A stretch of DNA of 64,000 bases from Flavobacteriaceae bacterium (GCA_013003555.1 JABDIV010000069.1:62001-126000); one strand, 5' to 3'; shown: positions 42,902 through 55,261, numbered from the stretch's first letter. Program-made: numbers and translations. The notes: generated by a model from the sequence alone, not told the origin.

Positions 42902-43762
42902 CTAACTAAAAAAGCTGGCATAGTCCTTTGTAAATTGATGAATTGACCTTGGTTCGCAACCGGTTATCTTTTTAAAGTCATCTGTAGGTTTATCATTTGA
43001 TTTAGCCCAGGTTTTGCTCATTTGAGTCAGGTCATCAGCCAGCCAATCAGGAAGTCCTGCAGCTTTCATCCCATGATTATGTGCCTCTGAAGGCACCTTG
43101 ATGTAGTTAATAATTCGATTAGTAGTCTCGGATAGTGATTTTGCAACATCGGAATATCCTATGGAAGAGGGACCAGTAATTACATAAGTACCATTATTGA
43201 AATTGTTATTGATAAGACAATGATAAGAAGCCAAAGCAACGTCACGGGCATCCACCATTGGAATCTGTCCATCTCCAATAGATTCGTAAAACACATCTTG
43301 TTCCTTAATGGTGGGAAGACTCATTAGCATGTTTTGCATGAAGGAATGTGGGCGTAATATCACATATTCCAATCCGCTGTTTTTTAAATGATCTTCTATT
43401 TGTCCGTGCCAATCGGCCAGATGAACAGGTGAACCGGTTTCTGCGACTACAGCCGAAATCTTAACTATCTTTTTTACACCTACTGAATTGGCATGATCAA
43501 TGAGTCCGTTTTGGTGATCAATATTTTCAGGAGATGCTCCGGTTAATAAAAAAATGGTATCAAAGTCTGTCAATACATTACTGATTCTATCCCAATCGCC
43601 AAGAGTTCCCTTTACAGTTGAAATCCCAGATTTTTCCAATTCTTTAGCCTTTTCCGAATTTCTCACAAGTGCCTTAAACTCAACTTGATTTTTGTTCAAA
43701 ATATTCAAAAGTTCGCGTCCTGTTGTACCAGTGCCTCCGATAACAAGTATTTTATTATTCAT
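42902..43762 (-). CDS. NmrA/SDR-type NAD(P)H-binding protein
   Basis: The track start at 43780 adds six codons; the ATG at 43762 (MNNKILVIGGTGTTGREL) is the usual start, giving 286 residues. The Rossmann turn GGTGTTGRE is clear. The YxxxK motif of classical SDRs is missing, as in NmrA-like and atypical SDRs that reduce quinones or act as redox sensors. It contains LRPHSFMQNML, common in this branch. It lies next to an acyl-CoA ligase gene on the same strand but with 78 bases between them. Confidence 0.85.
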   Translation of the reverse strand: MNNKILVIGGTGTTGRELLNILNKNQVEFKALVRNSEKAKELEKSGISTVKGTLGDWDRISNVLTDFDTIFLLTGASPENIDHQNGLIDHANSVGVKKIVKISAVVAETGSPVHLADWHGQIEDHLKNSGLEYVILRPHSFMQNMLMSLPTIKEQDVFYESIGDGQIPMVDARDVALASYHCLINNNFNNGTYVITGPSSIGYSDVAKSLSETTNRIINYIKVPSEAHNHGMKAAGLPDWLADDLTQMSKTWAKSNDKPTDDFKKITGCEPRSIHQFTKDYASFFS

Positions 43763-43840
43763 TACAAAGTAAATTTTCAATCAATTGATCATTTAAATTT
43801 ACTGAAATATTTTAAAAAATGTTTTTGGATATATATGTTT

Positions 43841-45541
43841 TCAGGCTGTTTTAACGCTACTGGCTTTTGAAAGATCCAATTCTTTAATGCTGATCTCACG
43901 CATTTCAACCTTCCTGATTTTTCTGGTCACTGTCATCGGGAAACTATCGGTAAATTTGAAATAAGTTGGGATTTTGAAATGAGCGATATTGCCCTTGCAG
44001 AAGGTTCTCAATTCATCTTCGGAAGCCTGTTCACCCTCCTTGAATTGAATCCAGGCCATTACTACTTCCCCATATTTAATATCGGGTACGCCAATAACCT
44101 GAACTTGAACTATTTTTGGATGCGTAAACAAAAATTCCTCAATTTCTTTCGGGTAGATATTTTCGCCACCGCGTATTATCATGTCTTTAATCCGTCCAAC
44201 GATTTTTATATACCCTTCTTCGTCCATGGTTGCAAGGTCCTCAGAATGCATCCATCCGGTTCGGTCAATAGCCTGACGAGTTTGCTCTTCATCATTCCAA
44301 TACCCGAGCATAACGCTATAACCGCGCATGCAAAGTTCACCGCGTTCTCCGAGGGGAACAATTAATCCGGTTTCAGGATCGATTATCTTAATTTCAACAT
44401 GTGGATGAATTTGACCTACCGTTGCGACTTGCTTATCAAGCGGTGTTCCTATTTTGGTTTGTGTGACCACCGGGCTGGTCTCGGTCATTCCATAACCGAC
44501 CTGAACATCGGTCATATGCATTACCGATTGAACTTTTTTCATAACCTCAATAGGGCAGGGCGATCCCGCCATAACTCCAGTTCGCAAGCTGCTAAGATCG
44601 AATTTATCGAAATCGGGATGTTCCAATTCGGCGATAAACATGGTTGGCACCCCATAAAGAACTGTTCCCTTTTCCGCTTCGACAGTTTCAAGAACAGCGA
44701 GAGGATCATATCCCGGGCTCGGATAAATCATGGTAGCCCCATGGGTCATACAACTTAAATTACCCAATACCATCCCGAAACAGTGATACAAAGGTACCGG
44801 GATCACAACACGTTCTTTATCCGAAAAATTCATTCGGCCTGCCGTAAAAATCGAATTGTTCAATATATTATGATGACTTAAGGTAGCACCTTTTGGGTGT
44901 CCTGTCGTTCCGCTGGTATATTGAATATTGATAGGGTCATCAAAGCATAACGTTTCAGCCCGTAATTCCAACTCCTTTGGTTGGATTTCCTCCGACCGAT
45001 CTAAGAATAGTTTCCATGATAGCATTCCTGCTGGAGGATTATCCGACAAGCTTACTACAATTTTCAGATTCGGGAGTTTTTCAGCTTTAAGGTTACCTAT
45101 TTGATCGGTTGACAGTTCCGGTGCTAAACTCATGACCATGTCATGATAATTCGAGTATTTAAACTGGTCCTCGATAACGATCATTACACAGCCTGATTGA
45201 TTTAATGCGTAATTCAATTCATTAACCCTGTAAGAGGGATTGATATTGACAAGAATAGCACCTACTTTGGCACATGCAAATTGAATAACGGTCCATTCAG
45301 ATCGATTTGATGACCAGATGCCCACGCGATCCCCTTTTTTAATATTGACCGATAAAAGGGCTCGTGCGCATTTGTTTACCTGATCACTAAGTTCAGCATA
45401 GGTCCAGCGAATATTTTGATGACGTACAACCAAAGCTTCATTTTTGTGATATCGCTTCACGGTCTCATCAAATTTCTCACCGATAGTAAGCCCGATCAAC
45501 GGCTCTTTACTTATGCCACAGGTATAACTTTTAGACACCAT
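43841..45541 (-). CDS. Acyl-CoA synthetase (AMP-binding family)
   Basis: A 566-residue adenylate-forming ligase. The phosphate loop is [13 protein letters not shown], with the gating YGMTETSP, the hinge region [22 protein letters not shown] and the C-terminal lysine in [10 protein letters not shown]. The pattern is that of medium/long-chain fatty acyl-CoA ligases (FadD/YhfL-like), which activate fatty acids for oxidation. It is a single gene, with a 165-base gap upstream that contains no other gene. No beta-oxidation genes are close by. Confidence 0.9.
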
Positions 45542-45706
45542 ATCATTATGTTTAGGGTTACTGTTAAGTTCGATAAATTAACAAGACGAAATTATAGAAA
45601 ACCTCTTGTGAATTCTATGATATTAGTCAGGCTTAAACTAAAGAGAATTACCGATAAAGCGTTTAACTATGACCATTTTCAGAAAAGAAAATTGCCGATG
45701 ATAAAT

Positions 45707-47305
45707 TTAATCCGATACTATAAATTGAGGCGCATTCCGATGCTTCGTTCCCTGTTCATAACTGTAGGCGATTTCAAGGAGAACCGGCTCACTCCATGCA
45801 CGGCCGAAAAAAGATATTCCTACCGGAAGGTTATCAATAAAGCCCATTGGGACTGTAATATTTGGGTATCCCGCCCGCGCCGCAGGTGAAGAACTACCCA
45901 CGTGAAAACTATCGCCATTCACAAGGTCGGTTTTCCATGCTGGCCCACCTGTAGGTGCTATTATTGCGTCAAGGTTTAGTTCATTCATAACCCGATCTAT
46001 GCCGTCTTGCTGACTTCCTGTCGTGAGCGAAACAAGGGCATCTAAATACTCCTGTGAGCTCAAGGCTTCCTTTTCATTTGCCATTTCGAGATAACGTTGA
46101 TCGTAATATCGCAGCTCAATGGAGTCTGACTGATTAAAAGCGATTAATTCATCGATGGATTTGATCGGGGCTTCGGGCCCAAGTCTTTTAAAATAGGAAT
46201 TAAGACCATCTTTATATTCAAACAGCATCACCTGGAAAGACGGGCTTCCCATGTTTTTTAAGGTGATATTATCGATCTCGATGACTTCAGCGCCTTGCTT
46301 TTTGATGTGATCAACGGCCTGATAAAAAAGCGAATCTACCTTATAGTGCCTTCCAACTGGTCGTTTATAGAGAGCAATGCGTTTACCTTTAAGTCCGTTA
46401 TCATTTAAAAACTGCGTATAATCACTTACGAATTTATCTCTACTTCCAAGGGTTTTCTCGTCTGAATTATCCAGGCCTGTAAGAACACTAAGGCAGATAG
46501 CAGCGTCAGTCACCGTTCGGGCCATAGGTCCTGCTGTGTCCTGGGTATAGGAAATGGGTATTATGCCGCTACGGCTTATCAAGCCCACTGTTGGTTTGAT
46601 CCCGACTACACCGTTATTATTAGCCGGACAAACAATTGATCCATTGGTTTCAGTACCGATAGCGATCATGCATAAATTAGCAGAAACTGCTACACCTGAC
46701 CCCGAACTTGAGCCACAAGGATTCCGATCAAGAACGTATGGGTTTTTGGTTTGTCCGTTTATACCACTCCAGCCACTTGAAGACAGTTCTCCTCTGAAGT
46801 TCGCCCATTCACTCAAATTGGCCTTACCTAATATAACAGCACCTGCCTCTCTTAATTTCCGTGCCACCCAACTATCATCTGGGGGAAATGAATTTGCAAG
46901 TGCTCTCGAGCCAGCTGTTGTTGGCATTTTATCATGGGTATCGATATTGTCCTTCAATAAAACAGGAATGCCATGCATTGGACCACGTATTCTCCCATTT
47001 TTTAATTCTTCATCAAGGGTTCGTGCGATAGCCAGAGCATCGGGATTTACGGTTATTACTGAATTTAATTGAGGACCGTCCTTATCGATAAATTCTATGC
47101 GTTCAAGATAGGCTTGAACCAGATCCTGAATCGTGAAATCTCCATTATTTAATCCTTTTTGAATTTGAGGAATCGTTGCTTCGAGAAATTCAAAATCATT
47201 ACTATCAACCTCTGGTTTTTGAGAAGGCCTGTCTTTGCAGGCATATAAGGTTGAAAAAATAAAAAGAATAGCGATGAAGTTTTTCTTTCTAAGGTGAATA
47301 AACAT
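45707..47305 (-). CDS. Amidase-signature lipoprotein
   Basis: A 532-residue lipoprotein (lipobox LYAC near residue 23). The Ser-cisSer-Lys triad of the amidase signature family is present: Lys in LLKDNIDT, the GSSSGSG loop and the nucleophile serine in TETNGSI. It hydrolyses carboxamides of unknown kind. It is the last gene of a four-gene set with a cupin lipoprotein, a Tat aminotransferase and a D-aminoacylase-like protein, so peptide or acyl-amino-acid substrates are plausible. Confidence 0.88.
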   Translation of the reverse strand: MFIHLRKKNFIAILFIFSTLYACKDRPSQKPEVDSNDFEFLEATIPQIQKGLNNGDFTIQDLVQAYLERIEFIDKDGPQLNSVITVNPDALAIARTLDEELKNGRIRGPMHGIPVLLKDNIDTHDKMPTTAGSRALANSFPPDDSWVARKLREAGAVILGKANLSEWANFRGELSSSGWSGINGQTKNPYVLDRNPCGSSSGSGVAVSANLCMIAIGTETNGSIVCPANNNGVVGIKPTVGLISRSGIIPISYTQDTAGPMARTVTDAAICLSVLTGLDNSDEKTLGSRDKFVSDYTQFLNDNGLKGKRIALYKRPVGRHYKVDSLFYQAVDHIKKQGAEVIEIDNITLKNMGSPSFQVMLFEYKDGLNSYFKRLGPEAPIKSIDELIAFNQSDSIELRYYDQRYLEMANEKEALSSQEYLDALVSLTTGSQQDGIDRVMNELNLDAIIAPTGGPAWKTDLVNGDSFHVGSSSPAARAGYPNITVPMGFIDNLPVGISFFGRAWSEPVLLEIAYSYEQGTKHRNAPQFIVSD

Positions 47306-47311
47306 AGCCTG

Positions 47312-47704
47312 TTATTTTGGTTCAATTATTAATACAACAGCAGTGCTGTCTCCAATATTTAGGGCTTCATGCCAGACAACACCTTGGCTGAAATAATGGC
47401 TGCCGCTAAAGAAATCGACCTCACGAATACCCGTAGTATCCTTTAACCTGAATCGACTTCCGTGGAGCGCATAGGCGAAATGTGGCTTATGATAATGTCG
47501 CTCATGACCCTCATTGGGCTCAAAGGTGCATTTTAAGATGCGCATTTTATCATTGTCCTCCATAACTTCGCATATCGACTTATTTTTCCATCCGGCCTCA
47601 AGTGGATCAGGTAGATCATTGGTCTTTCTGCAGCTGAAAATAACAAGTAAAAACAATAAAATTGCCAATCTAAGTTTCCCGGAGAAACTGAAAATCCCAT
47701 TCAT
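47312..47704 (-). CDS. Cupin-fold lipoprotein
   Basis: The 130-residue protein carries a lipobox (VIFSC, near residue 25) and a single cupin domain: GHERHYHKPHFAYAL gives a His-rich metal site and VVWHEALNIGDSTAVVLII the second motif. It lies 6 bases upstream of the amidase gene. Exported single-domain cupins of this kind may bind metal or sugar or act as small dioxygenases, but the role here is unknown. Confidence 0.78.
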   Translation of the reverse strand: MNGIFSFSGKLRLAILLFLLVIFSCRKTNDLPDPLEAGWKNKSICEVMEDNDKMRILKCTFEPNEGHERHYHKPHFAYALHGSRFRLKDTTGIREVDFFSGSHYFSQGVVWHEALNIGDSTAVVLIIEPK

Positions 47705-47724
47705 TTCGCTATTTCTGTTTCAAT

Positions 47725-48840
47725 TTATAATGTGGCCTTTAATGCATCTGCAAATTTGTGCATATGCGGAATGGTACCCGTACTGATCCTGCACCATTTG
47801 GTAAGTGGTGGAAACGGACGCCCTATTGCCACATCTTTTGCCCTCATTTTAGGGATAAGGTCATTGATGTTTTTACCCGTCTCGAAGAATACAAAATTGG
47901 TGTGTGAGGGTATATATTTTAATCCCAGTTCATTTAGGGTATCATAGATAATTGTTTTAGCTTCATTATTCTTGCGGATGCTCATCGTATAAAATTCATC
48001 ATCATCAAGAGCAGTTGTAGCACCGATAAGAGCCATCATATTTGCTTTGGCCATCACATTTTGACGAATTCGTTCGGCGATGTCGGGCCTTGCAATAAGG
48101 TAACCCACACGAAGTCCGGCCAAACCATAAACCTTAGAGAAGGTGCGTGAAACGATAACATTTTTGCCTGCTTTCACCAAATTAACCATTGATGGATAAT
48201 TTGAATCGGTGATATAATCATAATAGGCCTCATCAGAAAAAACAACTGTTTTCTCAGATACTGTATTACAAAAATCAACAAGATCTTGTTTTGGTATTAA
48301 GGTCCCGGTCGGGTTATTAGGATTACATAAAAAGACAAGAGATGTTTTTTGAGTAACACGTCGTTCCATTTCTTCGAGGTCATGGCCCATTTCACTATTT
48401 AACGGAACACGATTGATGTAGGCCCCGAACTGTTCGGCATAAGTCAAAAGAGACTTGTAAACCGGATCGGCAGCGATAATCTCGCCTCGATTATTGCCAT
48501 AAGTCAATCCTGCAGCTTTAAGACCCTCTGTCGATCCTGCGCACATGACAATATGTTCACGGGTAAGGCCTTCTTTTTTTGCAAGTATTTCTGCCAGTGC
48601 ATTCATTTTCTGATAGGGATAGCGGCAACCCATATCAAAACCGTCGATCATGGCTTGCCTGACTTTTTTAGAGGGACCAAACGGATTTTCGTTAGAATTG
48701 AGTTTAGCAAAATTTGAGATAGACCCAACGATGAATTCTTCATTGTGAGGGTTAGCTAAAACGTCAAAAGGCGTCAATGCTGCTGCAATTCCACCGAGTC
48801 CGCTAAGTTGTAACCATTCTCTTCTGTTTAATGACGCCAT
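47725..48840 (-). CDS. Tat-exported class I/II PLP aminotransferase
   Basis: The 371-residue protein is a HisC-like fold I aminotransferase: PNNPTGTL, DEAYYDY, and the PLP lysine in SRTFSKVYGLAGLRVGY. The N-terminus MASLNRREWLQLSGLGGIAAAL is a twin-arginine export signal (RR followed by a hydrophobic stretch). Exported PLP aminotransferases are unusual, as Tat export means folding with cofactor first. Its neighbours, a D-aminoacylase-like lipoprotein upstream (23 bases) and cupin/amidase lipoproteins downstream, suggest periplasmic amino-acid processing. Confidence 0.87.
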   Translation of the reverse strand: MASLNRREWLQLSGLGGIAAALTPFDVLANPHNEEFIVGSISNFAKLNSNENPFGPSKKVRQAMIDGFDMGCRYPYQKMNALAEILAKKEGLTREHIVMCAGSTEGLKAAGLTYGNNRGEIIAADPVYKSLLTYAEQFGAYINRVPLNSEMGHDLEEMERRVTQKTSLVFLCNPNNPTGTLIPKQDLVDFCNTVSEKTVVFSDEAYYDYITDSNYPSMVNLVKAGKNVIVSRTFSKVYGLAGLRVGYLIARPDIAERIRQNVMAKANMMALIGATTALDDDEFYTMSIRKNNEAKTIIYDTLNELGLKYIPSHTNFVFFETGKNINDLIPKMRAKDVAIGRPFPPLTKWCRISTGTIPHMHKFADALKATL

Positions 48841-48863
48841 GTTATTATGTTTTAGTTTAATTT

Positions 48864-50549
48864 TTATTTCGTTTTATATCCTGGTCCTCGAACAACTCGC
48901 CCCGGAAGTTTACCAGTATGTTCACCGTTTTTCAGTACCTGTTCCCCATTTACAAAAACGTGAACCATACCCGATGCTAGTTGATGGGGGCTGTTAAAAG
49001 TAGCATGATCGGTAATCGTTTTAGGATCGAAAATCGCCAGGTCTGCAAAGAAGCCTGTTTTCAAAAGTCCACGGTCTTTGATCTTTAAATTCTTGGCTGG
49101 CAGAGCAGTTAGTTTATGAATGGCTTCTTCCAGCGGAATCACGTTCTCATCGCGAACATATTTACCGAGAAGTCGGGCAAAGTTTCCATAGGCCCTTGGA
49201 TGGGTATTCGATTTTAAAAAAACACCTTCAGGAGCCATTGATCCGGCATCAGAACCAAAACTCATATAGGGTAAAGCGATCTGCTTTTTAACATTCTCTT
49301 CCGACATTAAAAAATAAACCGTTCCCACCCGACTGCCATCCTCAATAACCAGGTCGATGGCAGTTTCCTCGGGAGATTTATTCCGCATTCTGGCCACCTC
49401 TGCAAGGGTTTTACCCGTGAGATGCTTAAGGCTGTCATTTTTAAATCCAATTAAAAGCACTTTTTCAGGAGATTCGGCCGACAACATTAAATTTTCCCAT
49501 TGATCGGTAGGGGTTCTCATTTCGGTAATGACCCGCTTTCTGACATCGGGATCTCTCAGTCGTTTAGCCCATTCATCATATCCACCTTCCTGCACCCACG
49601 GTGGCATAGATGCATCCAAGCCTGTAGCACCGGCAATGTAGGTGTACATGTCGGTTGTTATATGGAGACCGGCCTGCCTCGCCGAGTCAATCTTAGCAAC
49701 TACCTGATCATATTTGTGCCAATTTGCCTTTCCACTCATTTTTAAATGATAAACTTCAGCTCTTATTTGGGCTTCATCAGCAATGCGAATGAGTTCGTTC
49801 AGACTGTTTAAAATGTTGGCCCCTTCGCTTCTCATATGAGAGATATACATGCCATCGTATTCTGAAGCTATTTTACACAATTCGATAAGCTCTTCGGTGC
49901 TCGAATAAAACGCAGGCGCATAAATTAATGATGATCCCACACCAAGGGCACCTTCTTCCATCGCCTGCCGAACCATGTCCTTCATACGGGTCAGCTCTTC
50001 GGCATTGGGAGCTCGATTTTCGAAACCTAATTCATGAATACGCAATGTCGTTGCCCCTACGAACGAGGCAATATTTGGTGAAATACCCTTTTCAACGAGG
50101 TATTCAAGATATTCTGAAAGTGTATTCCATTTAATATCAAATTTAATGTCTCCCTGGGCGACCATTTGTTGGTTTTTCATGGATTCATTCATAGGCCCCA
50201 TCGACCAACCCTCACCAAATACTTCAAGAGTCACCCCTTGTTTGATGTCACTCATTGATCGACCATCTTCTATAAGTGAAATCGTTGCCCAGCTAAGCAT
50301 ATTTATAAAACCAGGAGAAACAACCAGGCCGGTTGCATCTATTATATCATTTGAGGAGGCAGCCGAAAGGTCACCAATGGCTGCGATGGTATCGGCCTGA
50401 ATCGCGATATCACCAACCATTCCTTTATTTCCACTGCCGTCAACAATGGTTCCATTTCTGATGATAGTATCATATTCTGGAGCGTTTTCGCATTGATAAC
50501 AGGTTAATCCGATGACCAATGTAATAAATGCCGCCCTTACTGAATTCAT
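48864..50549 (-). CDS. D-aminoacylase-like amidohydrolase, lipoprotein
   Basis: A 561-residue amidohydrolase: IRNGTIVDGSGNKGMVGDIAIQ, VVSPGFINMLSW, ISHMRSEG, VYHLKMSG, GSDAGSMAPEG and HPRAYGNF agree with N-acyl-D-amino-acid deacylase. The usual DVHTHDD motif is absent: PGFIDxHxH reads PGFINMLSW. The later Cys ligand of the known enzyme is replaced by Glu in the VFGEGWS segment. So metal binding must differ or be lost. The signal ends at a Cys near residue 17-20 (TCYQC). It begins a four-gene set; an exact TAnnTTTG box lies upstream. Confidence 0.83.
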   Translation of the reverse strand: MNSVRAAFITLVIGLTCYQCENAPEYDTIIRNGTIVDGSGNKGMVGDIAIQADTIAAIGDLSAASSNDIIDATGLVVSPGFINMLSWATISLIEDGRSMSDIKQGVTLEVFGEGWSMGPMNESMKNQQMVAQGDIKFDIKWNTLSEYLEYLVEKGISPNIASFVGATTLRIHELGFENRAPNAEELTRMKDMVRQAMEEGALGVGSSLIYAPAFYSSTEELIELCKIASEYDGMYISHMRSEGANILNSLNELIRIADEAQIRAEVYHLKMSGKANWHKYDQVVAKIDSARQAGLHITTDMYTYIAGATGLDASMPPWVQEGGYDEWAKRLRDPDVRKRVITEMRTPTDQWENLMLSAESPEKVLLIGFKNDSLKHLTGKTLAEVARMRNKSPEETAIDLVIEDGSRVGTVYFLMSEENVKKQIALPYMSFGSDAGSMAPEGVFLKSNTHPRAYGNFARLLGKYVRDENVIPLEEAIHKLTALPAKNLKIKDRGLLKTGFFADLAIFDPKTITDHATFNSPHQLASGMVHVFVNGEQVLKNGEHTGKLPGRVVRGPGYKTK

Positions 50550-50580
50550 AGTTTTATTTTTTAATGATATTTCTTCGATT

Positions 50581-50588
50581 CAAATTTA
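50581..50588 (-). promoter_or_regulatory. -7 box (TAAATTTG) upstream of the D-aminoacylase-like gene
   Basis: An exact match on the minus strand, 31 bases before the ATG at 50549. No clear TTG at -33. It would drive the four-gene exported set. Confidence 0.4.
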
Positions 50589-50750
50589 TATATCCGACTA
50601 AGTCTGTTAAGAATTAAACATGCTATTTTAGTCACCCAGGTTAATGATTTAGTCGGTAAGTTCTCAATAATGAATACTTGAGGAAGATTGATAAGGCCAT
50701 GAGGTTTTCAACCGATCTAAGATACTAAATATTTCAATTGAATAGATGAC

Positions 50751-51311
50751 TCAACCTTTACCTGGGACATGTTTTCGTGAATTCAATAAACGCCCAATTA
50801 GCAAGGGTCCAAGAACAAGATAAATCATTGCTGTATATAGTCCCGGGAAATAACCACCAACATATAATGAGGTTCCCAGATGTGCCAGGCCATTGAACAT
50901 TATTCCGAATAGAATGAAAAAAACCGGAATGATTAAAAAGCTACCTGAGCGCCAGAAAAGTGTAATACCACCAAGAATAAAAATAAAGTAGGCTACCATG
51001 TTAAAAACTAGCCAAATATCGGTTGGATATGGTGGTTGATTGAAAAGTGCAGGCAGTTCAATTACGAACCCTGTAAGGTATTCCTCGGTAAAATGAAGAA
51101 ATTGAACACCCAGGGCGAAAAGATAAAGCGGCAAAACCGATTTCGGATCGGGAACCCTTTTATCAAAACTAAGCTGACAAAAGATAAAGCTTATGATAAT
51201 ACCAGGAACGAAAACCAATACCAAACCGATTGATCGCGATACAAACCATAGGGCAAGGATTGAGACCAAGGCAATTACCACGGAAATAATAACGGGTTTT
51301 TTGAAAACCAT
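50751..51311 (-). CDS. HXXEE-domain membrane protein
   Basis: A 186-residue membrane protein with about six hydrophobic segments. The HXXEE-domain motif is visible as FLHFTEEYLTGF, followed later by MFNGLAHLGTSLYVGGYFPGLYTA, which matches the second half of the domain. The function is not known. It stands alone between the D-aminoacylase-like set and asnA, with 201 bases of gap on the left. Confidence 0.78.
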   Translation of the reverse strand: MVFKKPVIISVVIALVSILALWFVSRSIGLVLVFVPGIIISFIFCQLSFDKRVPDPKSVLPLYLFALGVQFLHFTEEYLTGFVIELPALFNQPPYPTDIWLVFNMVAYFIFILGGITLFWRSGSFLIIPVFFILFGIMFNGLAHLGTSLYVGGYFPGLYTAMIYLVLGPLLIGRLLNSRKHVPGKG

Positions 51312-51378
51312 CAGCTAGTGGCCGGCAATCTTTTTAAGTAAAGCCTGAGTCTAAGTTAATCCAAATATGATATACAGC

Positions 51379-52506
51379 CTATTCCAGAACAACTATATTC
51401 TTTACTTCGCATATCTGCTTTAATTCATTTGGCCAAACCGAAACGGTGACTTCACCCAAATGGGCACAACGAAGCAAATACATATAAGTTCGCGCCTGTC
51501 CGATTCCTCCACCAATGCTCAAGGGTATTTCATCATTCAAGATGGCCTGATGGTAGGGGAGTTCAAGAAAATCGAGCTGACCTGACAATTCCAATTGCAG
51601 TTTCATTGTTTCTTTGGTCACCCTTACTCCCATGGAAGTAAGTTCATGCCGGCGTTTGGTTACCGGATTATAGACCAAAATATCACCATTTAATCCAAAC
51701 ATTTGCTCACCATTTTTCATGATCGTTGGTGTGATCCAGTCGTCGTAGTCGGCTGCCCGCATTTCGTGGGGATAACCATCTTTTAATACCGCCCCTATAC
51801 CGATGATAAATACGGCCGGATATTTCTCAAGGAGTTTATTTTCTCGTTCCTTTCTCGGAAGATCTGGAAACATGGCCAAGATTTCTTCGGCATGAATAAA
51901 CTTCAATTCTTCCGGAAAATCAGGATAGCGATCATCATTTAATTCCGGGAATTCTTTTCTGGCCATACGTCCGGCATCCCTAATTACAGCCCAGATATTT
52001 TTTACGGTATCTTTCAGATAACCGAGGGTTCTGTCTTCAGGGGTAATGCGCTTTTCCCAATCCCATTGATCAACATAGCAGGAGTGATCGTGATCGAGGA
52101 AATAATCTTTTCGTATGGCCCTCATATCGGTATTGATACCTTGACCTTCTTCGCATTCAAATTGCGCCAGGGCCATGCGTTTCCATTTCGTGGCTGCCTG
52201 AACGACTTGGGTCGGAATCCGCTCCTTTAGTCCGAGACCTGCCGGAAATTCAACCGGAGTTCTTGAACCATCTCGATCGAGGTAGTCATTTACACCACTA
52301 TCTTTTCTTACGATAAGCGGCACCTGGACCATTTGAAGGTTGAGCTTCTCTGCAAGTCCCTTTTCAATATAGTCTTTGACCATATACAATGCTTTCATGC
52401 GGCTCAATGGTGGCAGTACCGGGCTATAATTTTCAGGAAGAATTTTACTGACTTCGTCATAGGTGCTTATTCCGGGTCCTGCGAGATCTGCTTGTTTTGA
52501 TTTCAT
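51379..52506 (-). CDS. asnA: Aspartate-ammonia ligase
   Basis: A 375-residue AsnA. It resembles class II aminoacyl-tRNA synthetase catalytic cores, with YVDQWDWE, RAADYDDW, GLNGDILVYNP, LTSMGVRV and the C-terminal SIGGGIGQAR loop. It makes asparagine from aspartate, ammonia and ATP. The protein is about 45 residues longer than the E. coli enzyme; the extra residues include an N-terminal extension (ISTYDEVSKILPENYSPVLP). An exact TAnnTTTG box lies upstream. Confidence 0.95.
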   Translation of the reverse strand: MKSKQADLAGPGISTYDEVSKILPENYSPVLPPLSRMKALYMVKDYIEKGLAEKLNLQMVQVPLIVRKDSGVNDYLDRDGSRTPVEFPAGLGLKERIPTQVVQAATKWKRMALAQFECEEGQGINTDMRAIRKDYFLDHDHSCYVDQWDWEKRITPEDRTLGYLKDTVKNIWAVIRDAGRMARKEFPELNDDRYPDFPEELKFIHAEEILAMFPDLPRKERENKLLEKYPAVFIIGIGAVLKDGYPHEMRAADYDDWITPTIMKNGEQMFGLNGDILVYNPVTKRRHELTSMGVRVTKETMKLQLELSGQLDFLELPYHQAILNDEIPLSIGGGIGQARTYMYLLRCAHLGEVTVSVWPNELKQICEVKNIVVLE

Positions 52507-52573
52507 TCTTTTGTGGTTTAATTTGGATATTGCCGAGTAGGTTTCTCGATCTTTTTGACATTTGGATAACTCT

Positions 52574-52581
52574 CAAAGTTA
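52574..52581 (-). promoter_or_regulatory. -7 box (TAACTTTG) upstream of asnA
   Basis: An exact TAnnTTTG match on the minus strand, 67 bases before the ATG at 52506. A TTG lies 26 bases further upstream, longer than the normal distance, so the -33 element is uncertain. Confidence 0.4.
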
Positions 52582-52663
52582 AGGATTCAGAACTGTAAAA
52601 AAAGTGACAAATCTCAGTTTTAAATGTTCAATATTAACGATTTCATCAAGGGATACTTCCTCT

Positions 52664-52699
52664 AAAAAAGGTTCAATGACCCGAGATCATTGAACCTTT
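52664..52699 (-). terminator. Intrinsic terminator after the small lipoprotein gene
   Basis: A perfect 12-base stem (AAGGTTCAATGA / TCATTGAACCTT) with a 7-base loop ends, on the minus strand, in six T residues. It lies 28 bases past the stop at 52727 and prevents read-through into asnA. Confidence 0.88.
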
Positions 52700-52726
52700 A
52701 TTATCATCGGAAGTATTTTTACCAGA

Positions 52727-53224
52727 TTAGTACGTCAACGTACCTTCACCTTGATTGCTAAATACACCTGAAGTTGGCCCTGTAAATTCAAACACGCCGT
52801 AAAGCCTCAGTGTACCGCTAACATTTTCAAAACGGCCAGTTCCACTGTAATAATAGTAGTCATTATAAAAGCCGTTTTCATCTTCACCTCCTCCTATATT
52901 ATAGAAGAATAATTGGTCACCATTAGCTGCAATTTGATACCCGTTTAAAATATGAATGTCACCAAAATCAGTACAGTATGTAATGGTAACACTAAAATTT
53001 CCGATCAGGGTACCTTTTCCTTGTCCTTCTATTAAGACTTGAACCAGTCCCTCATCACAGACATCAGGAGTTACAATTTGGAATGTTCCGGAAGAGCGCA
53101 TTTTAAACGGGCGTTCAACCTGCACCCCTCTCTTTTGTGATTCGTCGATAGGCTCATCGACATCACAGCTAATAAAGCTTATGGCAATCATAGCCATAAA
53201 CAATAAAACGAGTCTTGCTTTCAT
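52727..53224 (-). CDS. Surface-type lipoprotein of unknown function
   Basis: The 165-residue protein has a lipobox (SFISC, near residue 20) followed by the acidic DVDEP, the kind of sequence associated with surface-exposed lipoproteins in Bacteroidota. The rest is strand-rich with many tyrosines (NDYYYYSGTGRFENVSGTLRLYG), suggesting an up-and-down beta-barrel. I do not recognise the family. The gene is monocistronic with a strong hairpin terminator. Confidence 0.72.
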   Translation of the reverse strand: MKARLVLLFMAMIAISFISCDVDEPIDESQKRGVQVERPFKMRSSGTFQIVTPDVCDEGLVQVLIEGQGKGTLIGNFSVTITYCTDFGDIHILNGYQIAANGDQLFFYNIGGGEDENGFYNDYYYYSGTGRFENVSGTLRLYGVFEFTGPTSGVFSNQGEGTLTY

Positions 53225-53359
53225 TATGTTATTAATATATTAAAAAGGTTAAAAGCAATACTTCCGAATGCAGTTTGAAAATAGTCGATAATTGAAAATT
53301 AAATTATGACTTTTGTTAGTTCGATTTAATTATTTTTTTTAGTCATTTAATCTCTAAAA

Positions 53360-55261
53360 CTAACTTTGCTCAACTAAAACTTCCTTTTGAAAGACCAGAT
53401 CCCTGATTTCATCAAGCACTGCCGGATCTTCAATCGTTGCAATGGCTGTAAAGGGTTTCTGATCTACAATATTTCGCATGGTTTTTCTCAATATTTTACC
53501 AGATCGTGTTTTTGGTAATCTTTTGGCAAAATATACCGTTTTAAATGCAGCTACAGGACCGAGGTTGTCACGTACCTTTTGTATGAGATCTGCGGAAATA
53601 ATTTCCTGAGGCGTGGTGACACCATCCTTTAGAACAACAAATCCTACAGGAATCTGACCTTTCATTTCATCGGCTATGCCAATCACAGCGCATTCTGCAA
53701 CATCGGGATAGGTTGCAACGATCTCTTCTATGGTTGCTGTTGATAACCGATGGCCGGCCACATTTATAATGTCGTCCATGCGTCCGGTAATATATATATA
53801 CCCTTCGGCATCTTTATAGGCGGAATCTTCGGCATTGTAAAAACCGGGATATTTGGTGAAATACGCTGCGATAAACCGTTCAGTGTTCCTCCATAGGTTG
53901 GTAAGAAAGCCTGGTGGGGTAGGTCGTTTAATAACAAGAGAACCTTCTTCTTGTGGCCCGACTTCCTCTCCATCTTGATCGAGAATGGTCATGTTGTACC
54001 CAGGTACACTCACGCTTGATGAGCCTGGTTTAACGGGTAGTAGTTCTAATCCAGGCATATTGGCAATCATCGGCCAGCCACTTTCTGTCTGCCACCAATG
54101 ATCGATAACGGGGATATTTAGTAATTTCTGTGCCCATTTTAAAGTTCCGGTATCACATCGTTCTCCAGCAAGGAACAAATAACGCAATGACGACAGATCA
54201 TACTTAGATTTAAGTTCGCCGTTTGGATCCTCTTTTACGATGGCACGAAATGCTGTAGGTGCTGTGAAAAACACATTGATATTATAATCGTTAATAACAC
54301 GCCAGAATGTACCTGCATCTGGTGTTCTAACCGGTTTTCCTTCAAACAACACCGTGGTACATCCTTGAATAAGCGGTGCATAAACGATATAGGAATGCCC
54401 GACAACCCAACCAACGTCGCTTGCGGCCCAAAAGACATCACCTGGTTTACAGTTATAAATATAATCCATGCTAAATTTCATGGATACTGCATGGCCACCA
54501 TTATCACGCATCACCCCTTTAGGCTTACCCGTGGTACCTGAAGTATAAATTATATATAAAGTATCGGTCGATTTTACTTCGACATATTTAGCGGGCTTTG
54601 ATTTGGCTTTGAGAATCTGCCAGTCTATATCACGAGGTTCGATCATTTCGGCTTTATATTCTGGGCGTTGGTACAAGACCACATGATCAACTTTGTGGGC
54701 TGCAAGATCGAGAGCCTGGTCAACCAGCGTTTTGTATGGTATAACTTTTTGAACTTCTATACCACACGAGGCTGTAAGCATGACCTTTGGTGTGGCATTA
54801 TCAATTCGCACCGCTAATTCATTTGGTGCAAATCCACCAAAAACCACTGAATGAATAGCTCCAATCCTGGCGCAGGCTAGCATAGCGAATACGGTTTGAG
54901 ATATCATTGGCATATAAATGATGACCCGATCTCCCTTGGTCACACCAAGGCTAAGAAGCATGCCGGCTACCATTTCCACTTCATGTAGTAACTGTGCGTA
55001 GGTATAAGTCATTTTTTTATCAGTCACCGGAGAATCGTAAATCAGGGCGAGCTGATTGCCTCGTCCTGCCTTTACATGACGGTCTAAGGCTAAATAACTC
55101 GTATTTAAGGTGCCATCGGAGTACCAGCGATCAAATCCTTCATCCGATTTTGAATAAATAGTTTCCGGAAATTTAAACCAATCGATTTTTTCGGCTTGCT
55201 CTTTCCAAAATGACTCATAATCAGTAATGCTTTTTTGATGAAATGCCTTATAAGTTCTCAT
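53360..55261 (-). CDS. prpE: Propionyl-CoA/acetyl-CoA synthetase
   Basis: The 633-residue AMP-forming synthetase has YTSGTTGKPKGVMRDNGGHAV (AMP loop), WWQTESGWPMI, YITGRMDDIINVAGHRLST and the acetylation-site lysine in TRSGKILRK. The VMRDNGGHAV wording and GDVFWAASDVGWVVGHSYIVY match the PrpE/ACSS3 branch rather than canonical Acs, so propionate is a probable substrate. Propionate-CoA metabolism (methylmalonyl or methylcitrate) genes are not in the window. It is a single gene. Confidence 0.88.
   Translation of the reverse strand: MRTYKAFHQKSITDYESFWKEQAEKIDWFKFPETIYSKSDEGFDRWYSDGTLNTSYLALDRHVKAGRGNQLALIYDSPVTDKKMTYTYAQLLHEVEMVAGMLLSLGVTKGDRVIIYMPMISQTVFAMLACARIGAIHSVVFGGFAPNELAVRIDNATPKVMLTASCGIEVQKVIPYKTLVDQALDLAAHKVDHVVLYQRPEYKAEMIEPRDIDWQILKAKSKPAKYVEVKSTDTLYIIYTSGTTGKPKGVMRDNGGHAVSMKFSMDYIYNCKPGDVFWAASDVGWVVGHSYIVYAPLIQGCTTVLFEGKPVRTPDAGTFWRVINDYNINVFFTAPTAFRAIVKEDPNGELKSKYDLSSLRYLFLAGERCDTGTLKWAQKLLNIPVIDHWWQTESGWPMIANMPGLELLPVKPGSSSVSVPGYNMTILDQDGEEVGPQEEGSLVIKRPTPPGFLTNLWRNTERFIAAYFTKYPGFYNAEDSAYKDAEGYIYITGRMDDIINVAGHRLSTATIEEIVATYPDVAECAVIGIADEMKGQIPVGFVVLKDGVTTPQEIISADLIQKVRDNLGPVAAFKTVYFAKRLPKTRSGKILRKTMRNIVDQKPFTAIATIEDPAVLDEIRDLVFQKEVLVEQS

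Follow-up and report, generated by a model that had tools for sequence, protein, structure and literature searches.

Organization of the four-gene locus

Four open reading frames (ORFs) lie head to tail on one strand of the window, the 64,000-nucleotide stretch of Flavobacteriaceae bacterium DNA analysed here. The genes, DAA, AT, CUP and AMI, and the region upstream of them are listed in Table 1. The gaps measure 23 (DAA/AT), 20 (AT/CUP) and 6 bases (CUP/AMI), in agreement with the first-pass annotation, which had described four head-to-tail genes 6-23 bases apart. An HXXEE family gene (50751-51311) precedes DAA at a distance of 201 bases and an AMP-binding gene (43841-45541) follows AMI at 165 bases; compared with the short gaps inside, these distances set the block off from both neighbours.

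Table 1. Coordinates of the four-gene block, its upstream region and neighbouring genes of relatives referred to in the text
Feature	Coordinates	Strand	Remarks
DAA (D-aminoacylase-like amidohydrolase)	48864-50549	-	561 aa; PF07969
AT (Tat-signal PLP aminotransferase)	47725-48840	-	371 aa; PF00155
CUP (small cupin lipoprotein)	47312-47704	-	130 aa; Cupin_2 below cut-off, lipobox VIFSC
AMI (amidase-signature lipoprotein, peptide amidase (Pam) type)	45707-47305	-	532 aa; PF01425, NF006006
Region upstream of DAA	50550-50750	-	201-base intergenic stretch; TATAAATTTG some 32 bases upstream of the start of DAA
AT-paired 263-aa protein	L044:7011-7805 and many Algoriphagus, Belliella, Cecembia loci		
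S12/M55 neighbours of DAA relatives	L129:8667-9773, L133:8108-9562, L139:8123-9256, L148:4623-6449, L132:5405-6406		

The stretch before DAA is the only spacer of promoter size in the block. Upstream of DAA, a TAnnTTTG match (50581-50588) and a weak sigma-70 pattern are present, both suggestive only as neither pattern is commoner than in shuffles; promoter and terminator patterns at the block showed no excess over shuffled sequence. No transporter or regulator was found within the four-gene block, and Pfam domains revealed no peptide synthetase of a product cluster among the ten proteins scanned (42905-55261).

The window is part of contig C99, one of 120 in the genome assembly (completeness 99.5%, contamination 5%). 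The acetyl-CoA-synthetase-like gene of this contig gave no information on its placement. The contig could in principle be a contaminant, although a second MAG has the same four-gene set.

Properties of the aminotransferase AT

AT is a fold-type-I class I/II aminotransferase and a relative of HisC and PtaA. Its scores against NF006580 (271 bits) and against the PtaA model NF051461 (237.9 bits, cut-off 500) are both below cut-off. Its identification as HisC was rejected. AT has the same fold and PLP residues as HisC, but scores 247.4 bits against TIGR01141 (histidinol-phosphate transaminase), below the 276.55 cut-off, and is predicted to be exported, whereas the genome has a HisC of its own, at 354.3 bits, adjoining a hisD-like gene.

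The Tat motif of AT reads NRREWLQ. Its two Arg residues and the Trp (RRxW[LI]) are invariant in all 79 AT sequences, and so are the PLP-site residues N173, D203, Y206, K236, R244 and R351. TatC is encoded in the window genome, and AT is predicted to be Tat-exported. Both the twin-arginine signal and the PLP active site, whose completeness the first-pass annotation had left to be checked, are therefore conserved.

PtaA and PvdN of Pseudomonas are Tat-exported PLP enzymes that act in the periplasm; PtaA acts on Glu of pyoverdine and occurs also in species without pyoverdine (PMC6206403). Exported PLP transamination, the second step of a route that the first-pass annotation did not know to be described for the envelope, thus has precedents. 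Like these two enzymes, AT combines a PLP fold with a twin-arginine signal, and it matches the PtaA model over the full length including the signal; it differs in its much lower score and in that no pyoverdine genes were seen.

In the AT tree, both sequences of the genus nest inside Saprospirales with strong support. AT was therefore probably acquired, and the set looks recently assembled.

Across Cyclobacteriaceae, a 263-aa exported protein without a Pfam match is divergently paired with the Tat aminotransferase and a GNAT acetyltransferase lies downstream; in Algoriphagus these neighbours gave no functional clue. In three marine Flavobacteriales MAGs (L055, L060, L070) AT comes after three same-strand genes which, judged by eye only, resemble amino-acid permease, Rieske-type oxygenase and phosphotransferase-type genes.

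Properties of AMI and CUP

AMI scores 664.3 bits against NF006006, above the cut-off of 534, and 482 bits against Pam of Stenotrophomonas maltophilia (1m21) in a whole-length alignment. The motifs LLKDN, GSSSGSG and TETNGS are at residues 116, 198 and 218, and the Ser-Ser-Lys triad is complete and aligned with that of Pam, so that every catalytic motif is shared. Pam modifies C-termini of peptides (PMC9155641). AMI differs from Pam in having a lipoprotein signal, with a good lipobox (TLYAC; FILSC in the sister species), and in its location in a block with DAA, AT and CUP.

The lipobox of CUP is likewise good (SLSSC in the sister species). Its match to Cupin_2 is weak: the score is 16.8 bits where the cut-off is 27.2, with E 0.0055. 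Two cupin-like motifs, HxH and H(x)3N, are present and the usual Glu ligand is absent; H70, H72, H112 and N116 are kept in the sister species. The structure model is weak (pLDDT 55). Among 395 other Bacteroidota genomes, five contain relatives, at 52-57% identity.

DAA and its metal site

The nearest solved structures to DAA are those of AfDam and its relatives, with 264 bits to PDB 1rjp. Homology to the D-aminoacylases (N-acyl-D-amino-acid deacylases), subtype V amidohydrolases represented by AfDam (1m7j/1rjp), BbDam (3gip) and PpOngB (9kb1), begins with the N-terminal beta strands and continues to the C-terminus. DAA shares with them His220, His250, Lys252, Tyr283, Asp366 and Arg377, and differs by its predicted export and by extra residues between about 311 and 376.

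The first-pass annotation had called DAA a D-aminoacylase-like lipoprotein and had credited each of the four proteins with an export signal of its own. The family assignment stands, with the losses described below, and so do the Tat motif of AT and the lipoboxes of CUP and AMI. DAA itself has a hydrophobic signal and lacks a canonical lipobox (GLTC or CYQC, where T or Q precedes the Cys), which makes the lipoprotein status of this copy unsure; most DAA relatives have a proper lipobox.

In the alignment with AfDam and relatives, the HxH columns of window DAA hold L85-x-W87, and the column of the zinc ligand Cys96 holds Glu113 after a one-residue deletion; the gap at Glu113 could sit one column away. 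DAA accordingly departs from the Cys/His/His metal site of the D-aminoacylases, with both histidines (His238 and His268) kept and the Cys replaced by Glu. The catalytic Asp366 is kept as D434, and Lys252, Tyr283 and Arg377, which anchor the substrate, are kept as K270, Y302 and R452.

The same Glu is found throughout the aligned relatives that lack HxH. Among 39 HxH-less sequences, the window copy included, LxW is found in 38 and LxH in one, and all 39 have Glu at the Cys96 column; the 13 HxH-bearing sequences all have Asp there, a clean split. The six shared residues are kept in both groups wherever the sequence is complete. Judged by these residues, DAA is not an ordinary D-aminoacylase and belongs to a clade without HxH, sampled within Bacteroidota. 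Of 395 other Bacteroidota genomes, 51 have a match to DAA at E <= 1e-120, about 1 in 8 sampled; the motif is shown for the 39 sequences.

Two characterised groups indicate what such a loss may entail. PpOngB binds a single zinc, and yet neither the Cys nor either His of its HxH can be spared (PMC12017989). In mycobacterial NagA the metal site consists of Glu/His/His plus HXH, and in a two-metal NagA changing HXH to QXN or AXA abolished activity, while the NagA of E. coli and V. cholerae has QXN in place of HXH and one metal (PMC6016474). The loss of HXH must therefore be compensated. The economical reading of DAA is a predicted single-metal site of Glu113/His238/His268, with Glu113 in place of Cys96. 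If this model holds, DAA would resemble the E. coli and V. cholerae NagA in its Glu/His/His site, its catalytic Asp, the replaced HXH and the one metal. NagA is nevertheless not its family: D-aminoacylases are the nearest proteins of solved structure, and no NagA appeared among the PDB matches. Structure prediction from the single sequence gave no usable model (pLDDT 34), so the metal site rests on the alignment. A metal-dependent bile salt hydrolase (PMC13081902) was set aside as a guide, as that work concerns a relative with a two-metal site and not the HxH-less clade.

Several relatives of DAA deserve mention in their own right. The most divergent HxH-less protein (L166, 49% identity) has LxH and Glu, intermediate between HxH and LxW. 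In the Bacteroidota family f44, an HxH-less (Glu) gene has an HxH-bearing (Asp) paralogue downstream on its strand, so that genes for two kinds of metal site stand in tandem. The two are adjacent in L138, L141, L142, L143, L144 and L158, with several overlaps of 1-4 bases, and in L147 one small opposite-strand ORF lies between them. In another genome (L013:1167-3069), the genes directly after an HxH-bearing D-aminoacylase paralogue are cupin-like (103 aa) and SDR-like.

Of the 38 loci with DAA relatives, four have an S12 beta-lactamase-fold hydrolase as the direct same-strand neighbour and one has an M55 D-aminopeptidase there (Table 1). These neighbours fit, as a hint, an action on small peptides containing D-amino acids; the nominal binomial values (0.003-0.03) are optimistic because the neighbours were counted after being seen.

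Conservation of the set within and outside the genus

The order DAA-AT-CUP-AMI is also present in a second species of the genus (G002; contig matching JABDPU010000087). Protein identities between the two are 87% for DAA, 77% for AT, 60-66% for CUP and 74% for AMI, and pN/pS values, obtained with synonymous sites saturated, are 0.11, 0.20, 0.32 and 0.22, respectively. Purifying selection seems to act on each of the four proteins, which indicates that the ORFs are real genes. A third genome of the genus, 73% complete, gave no DAA or AT match; the set is thus found in 2 of 3 genomes of the genus.

Gene order in relatives had been set beforehand as the refuting test for the first-pass proposal, and the result went against it: outside the genus the genes are scattered. 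At 78 AT loci neither DAA nor CUP is a neighbour, and AMI is never adjacent. Amidase-signature genes do lie downstream of AT in L016 (29% identity, about 2.5 kb away, other strand) and in L087 (39%, about 3.2 kb, beyond an opposite-strand gene). None of AT, CUP and AMI is found within four genes of DAA at 38 loci, and none of the five CUP and six AMI loci has other set members as neighbours. Likewise, a sample of 396 genomes contained no matches to different set members near each other; the closest pair seen, DAA and AMI in G239, lies 70 kb apart. As far as sampled, the set is genus-specific.

DAA and AT were found in the same genome 15 times against 3.9 expected, and by genus 9 times against 3.4; with close AT relatives only, the numbers are 4 genera against 1.5. 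This co-occurrence is confounded by kinship and genome size.

Discussion

The set is real, selected and, as far as sampled, genus-specific. Its parts are of known kinds, and what is new is their combination and the predicted metal site of DAA, which, rebuilt as it is, makes DAA the least expected part. The gene order, the families, the export signals, the active-site residues and the synteny limited to the genus are observed. A probable role of the four exported enzymes is to free amino acids or small peptides of acyl and amide groups within the cell envelope. The theme of amide hydrolases in an exported same-strand block, already recognised in the first-pass annotation, is supported.

The explanation that we prefer, and to which we give about an even chance, is a single transcription unit assembled within the genus, whose enzymes would deblock amino acids and small peptides in the envelope. 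The four genes would be co-transcribed, having been brought together from genes that stand alone elsewhere. AMI would take C-terminal carboxamides off peptides or amino-acid amides. DAA would hydrolyse the N-acyl bond with one metal ion on Glu113/His238/His268 and Asp434 as general base, so that a D-aminoacylase scaffold would hold the active-site arrangement of E. coli NagA. AT would fold with PLP in the cytoplasm before Tat export and then, as PtaA does, deaminate a substrate whose alpha-amino-acid end is free. CUP may be a small metal-binding accessory protein. The enzymes would share a substrate pool rather than act in strict sequence.

The same order in a second species, together with purifying selection, the short gaps and the complete AT and AMI residues, supports this explanation, and the nesting of AT in Saprospirales fits assembly by acquisition. 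TatC and a separate HisC in the genome, the clean split among the DAA sequences with its kept residues, and the precedents of NagA for the metal site and of PtaA and PvdN for exported PLP enzymes also count in its favour. It is weakened by the absence of the set outside the genus, by the one genus genome of three (73% complete) without a DAA or AT match, and by the lack of a transporter or regulator gene in the block. A further point against it is PpOngB, in which neither HxH nor the Cys can be dispensed with.

That four unrelated exported enzymes share an operon by chance, with no joint function, is unlikely. Each gene stands alone in relatives and AT looks acquired, as this would predict; order and short gaps are kept, however, over a distance that saturates synonymous sites, and the substrates of three of the four enzymes, judged by family, resemble amino acids and are attacked at amide or amino groups.

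It is also quite unlikely that DAA is no longer a hydrolase and has been kept for another role, as a binding protein or for other chemistry. The loss of two features whose counterparts are essential in PpOngB is what such a protein would show, and the f44 tandem genes resemble catalytic/non-catalytic pairs. Yet the other catalytic residues are invariant and the Cys has given way to an invariant carboxylate, needless in a dead enzyme; moreover, the window genus has no such partner (one match at E <= 1e-60).

The first-pass annotation had proposed a linear route, in which an amino acid released in the envelope by DAA and AMI would next be transaminated by AT. All four proteins are predicted to be exported and are encoded side by side, the AT active site is complete, and DAA and AT co-occur above chance. 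The genes are never adjacent outside the genus, however, and the co-occurrence, confounded by kinship, shrinks with close AT relatives. Fold-type-I transaminases normally use L-amino acids, and D-aminoacylases release D-amino acids; what a D-specific deacylase releases would thus not serve AT directly. We also know of no amino acceptor in the periplasm. With the set scattered outside the genus, this mismatch, and DAA short of two essential features, the route is left unsupported, and we regard it as distinctly improbable.

Least convincing is a PtaA-like tailoring of a secreted small molecule or peptide, with AT altering the amino-acid end and AMI and DAA trimming amide and acyl groups: the activity of PtaA on Glu of pyoverdine, its occurrence in species without pyoverdine (PMC6206403) and the match of AT to its model, signal included, are in favour, but AT is far below the cut-off, its relatives are lone genes, and Pfam showed no peptide synthetase of a product cluster among the ten proteins scanned, so that this reading seems very unlikely. 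Just as doubtful is a bolder proposal, which combines an envelope pathway from N-acyl- or amide-blocked amino acids to 2-oxo acids outside the cytoplasm with DAA as an unrecognised single-metal Glu/His/His subtype across Bacteroidota.

In the DAA family, the hydrolysis of acyl-amino acids may have been rebuilt towards the NagA solution or may have made way for another function. Transfer of the name D-aminoacylase to the HxH-less clade is risky, because two features essential in one solved relative are missing, and the risk touches a protein present in about one-eighth of the sampled Bacteroidota genomes. For the AT family, the conserved Tat signal would extend exported transamination from Pseudomonas to many Bacteroidota.
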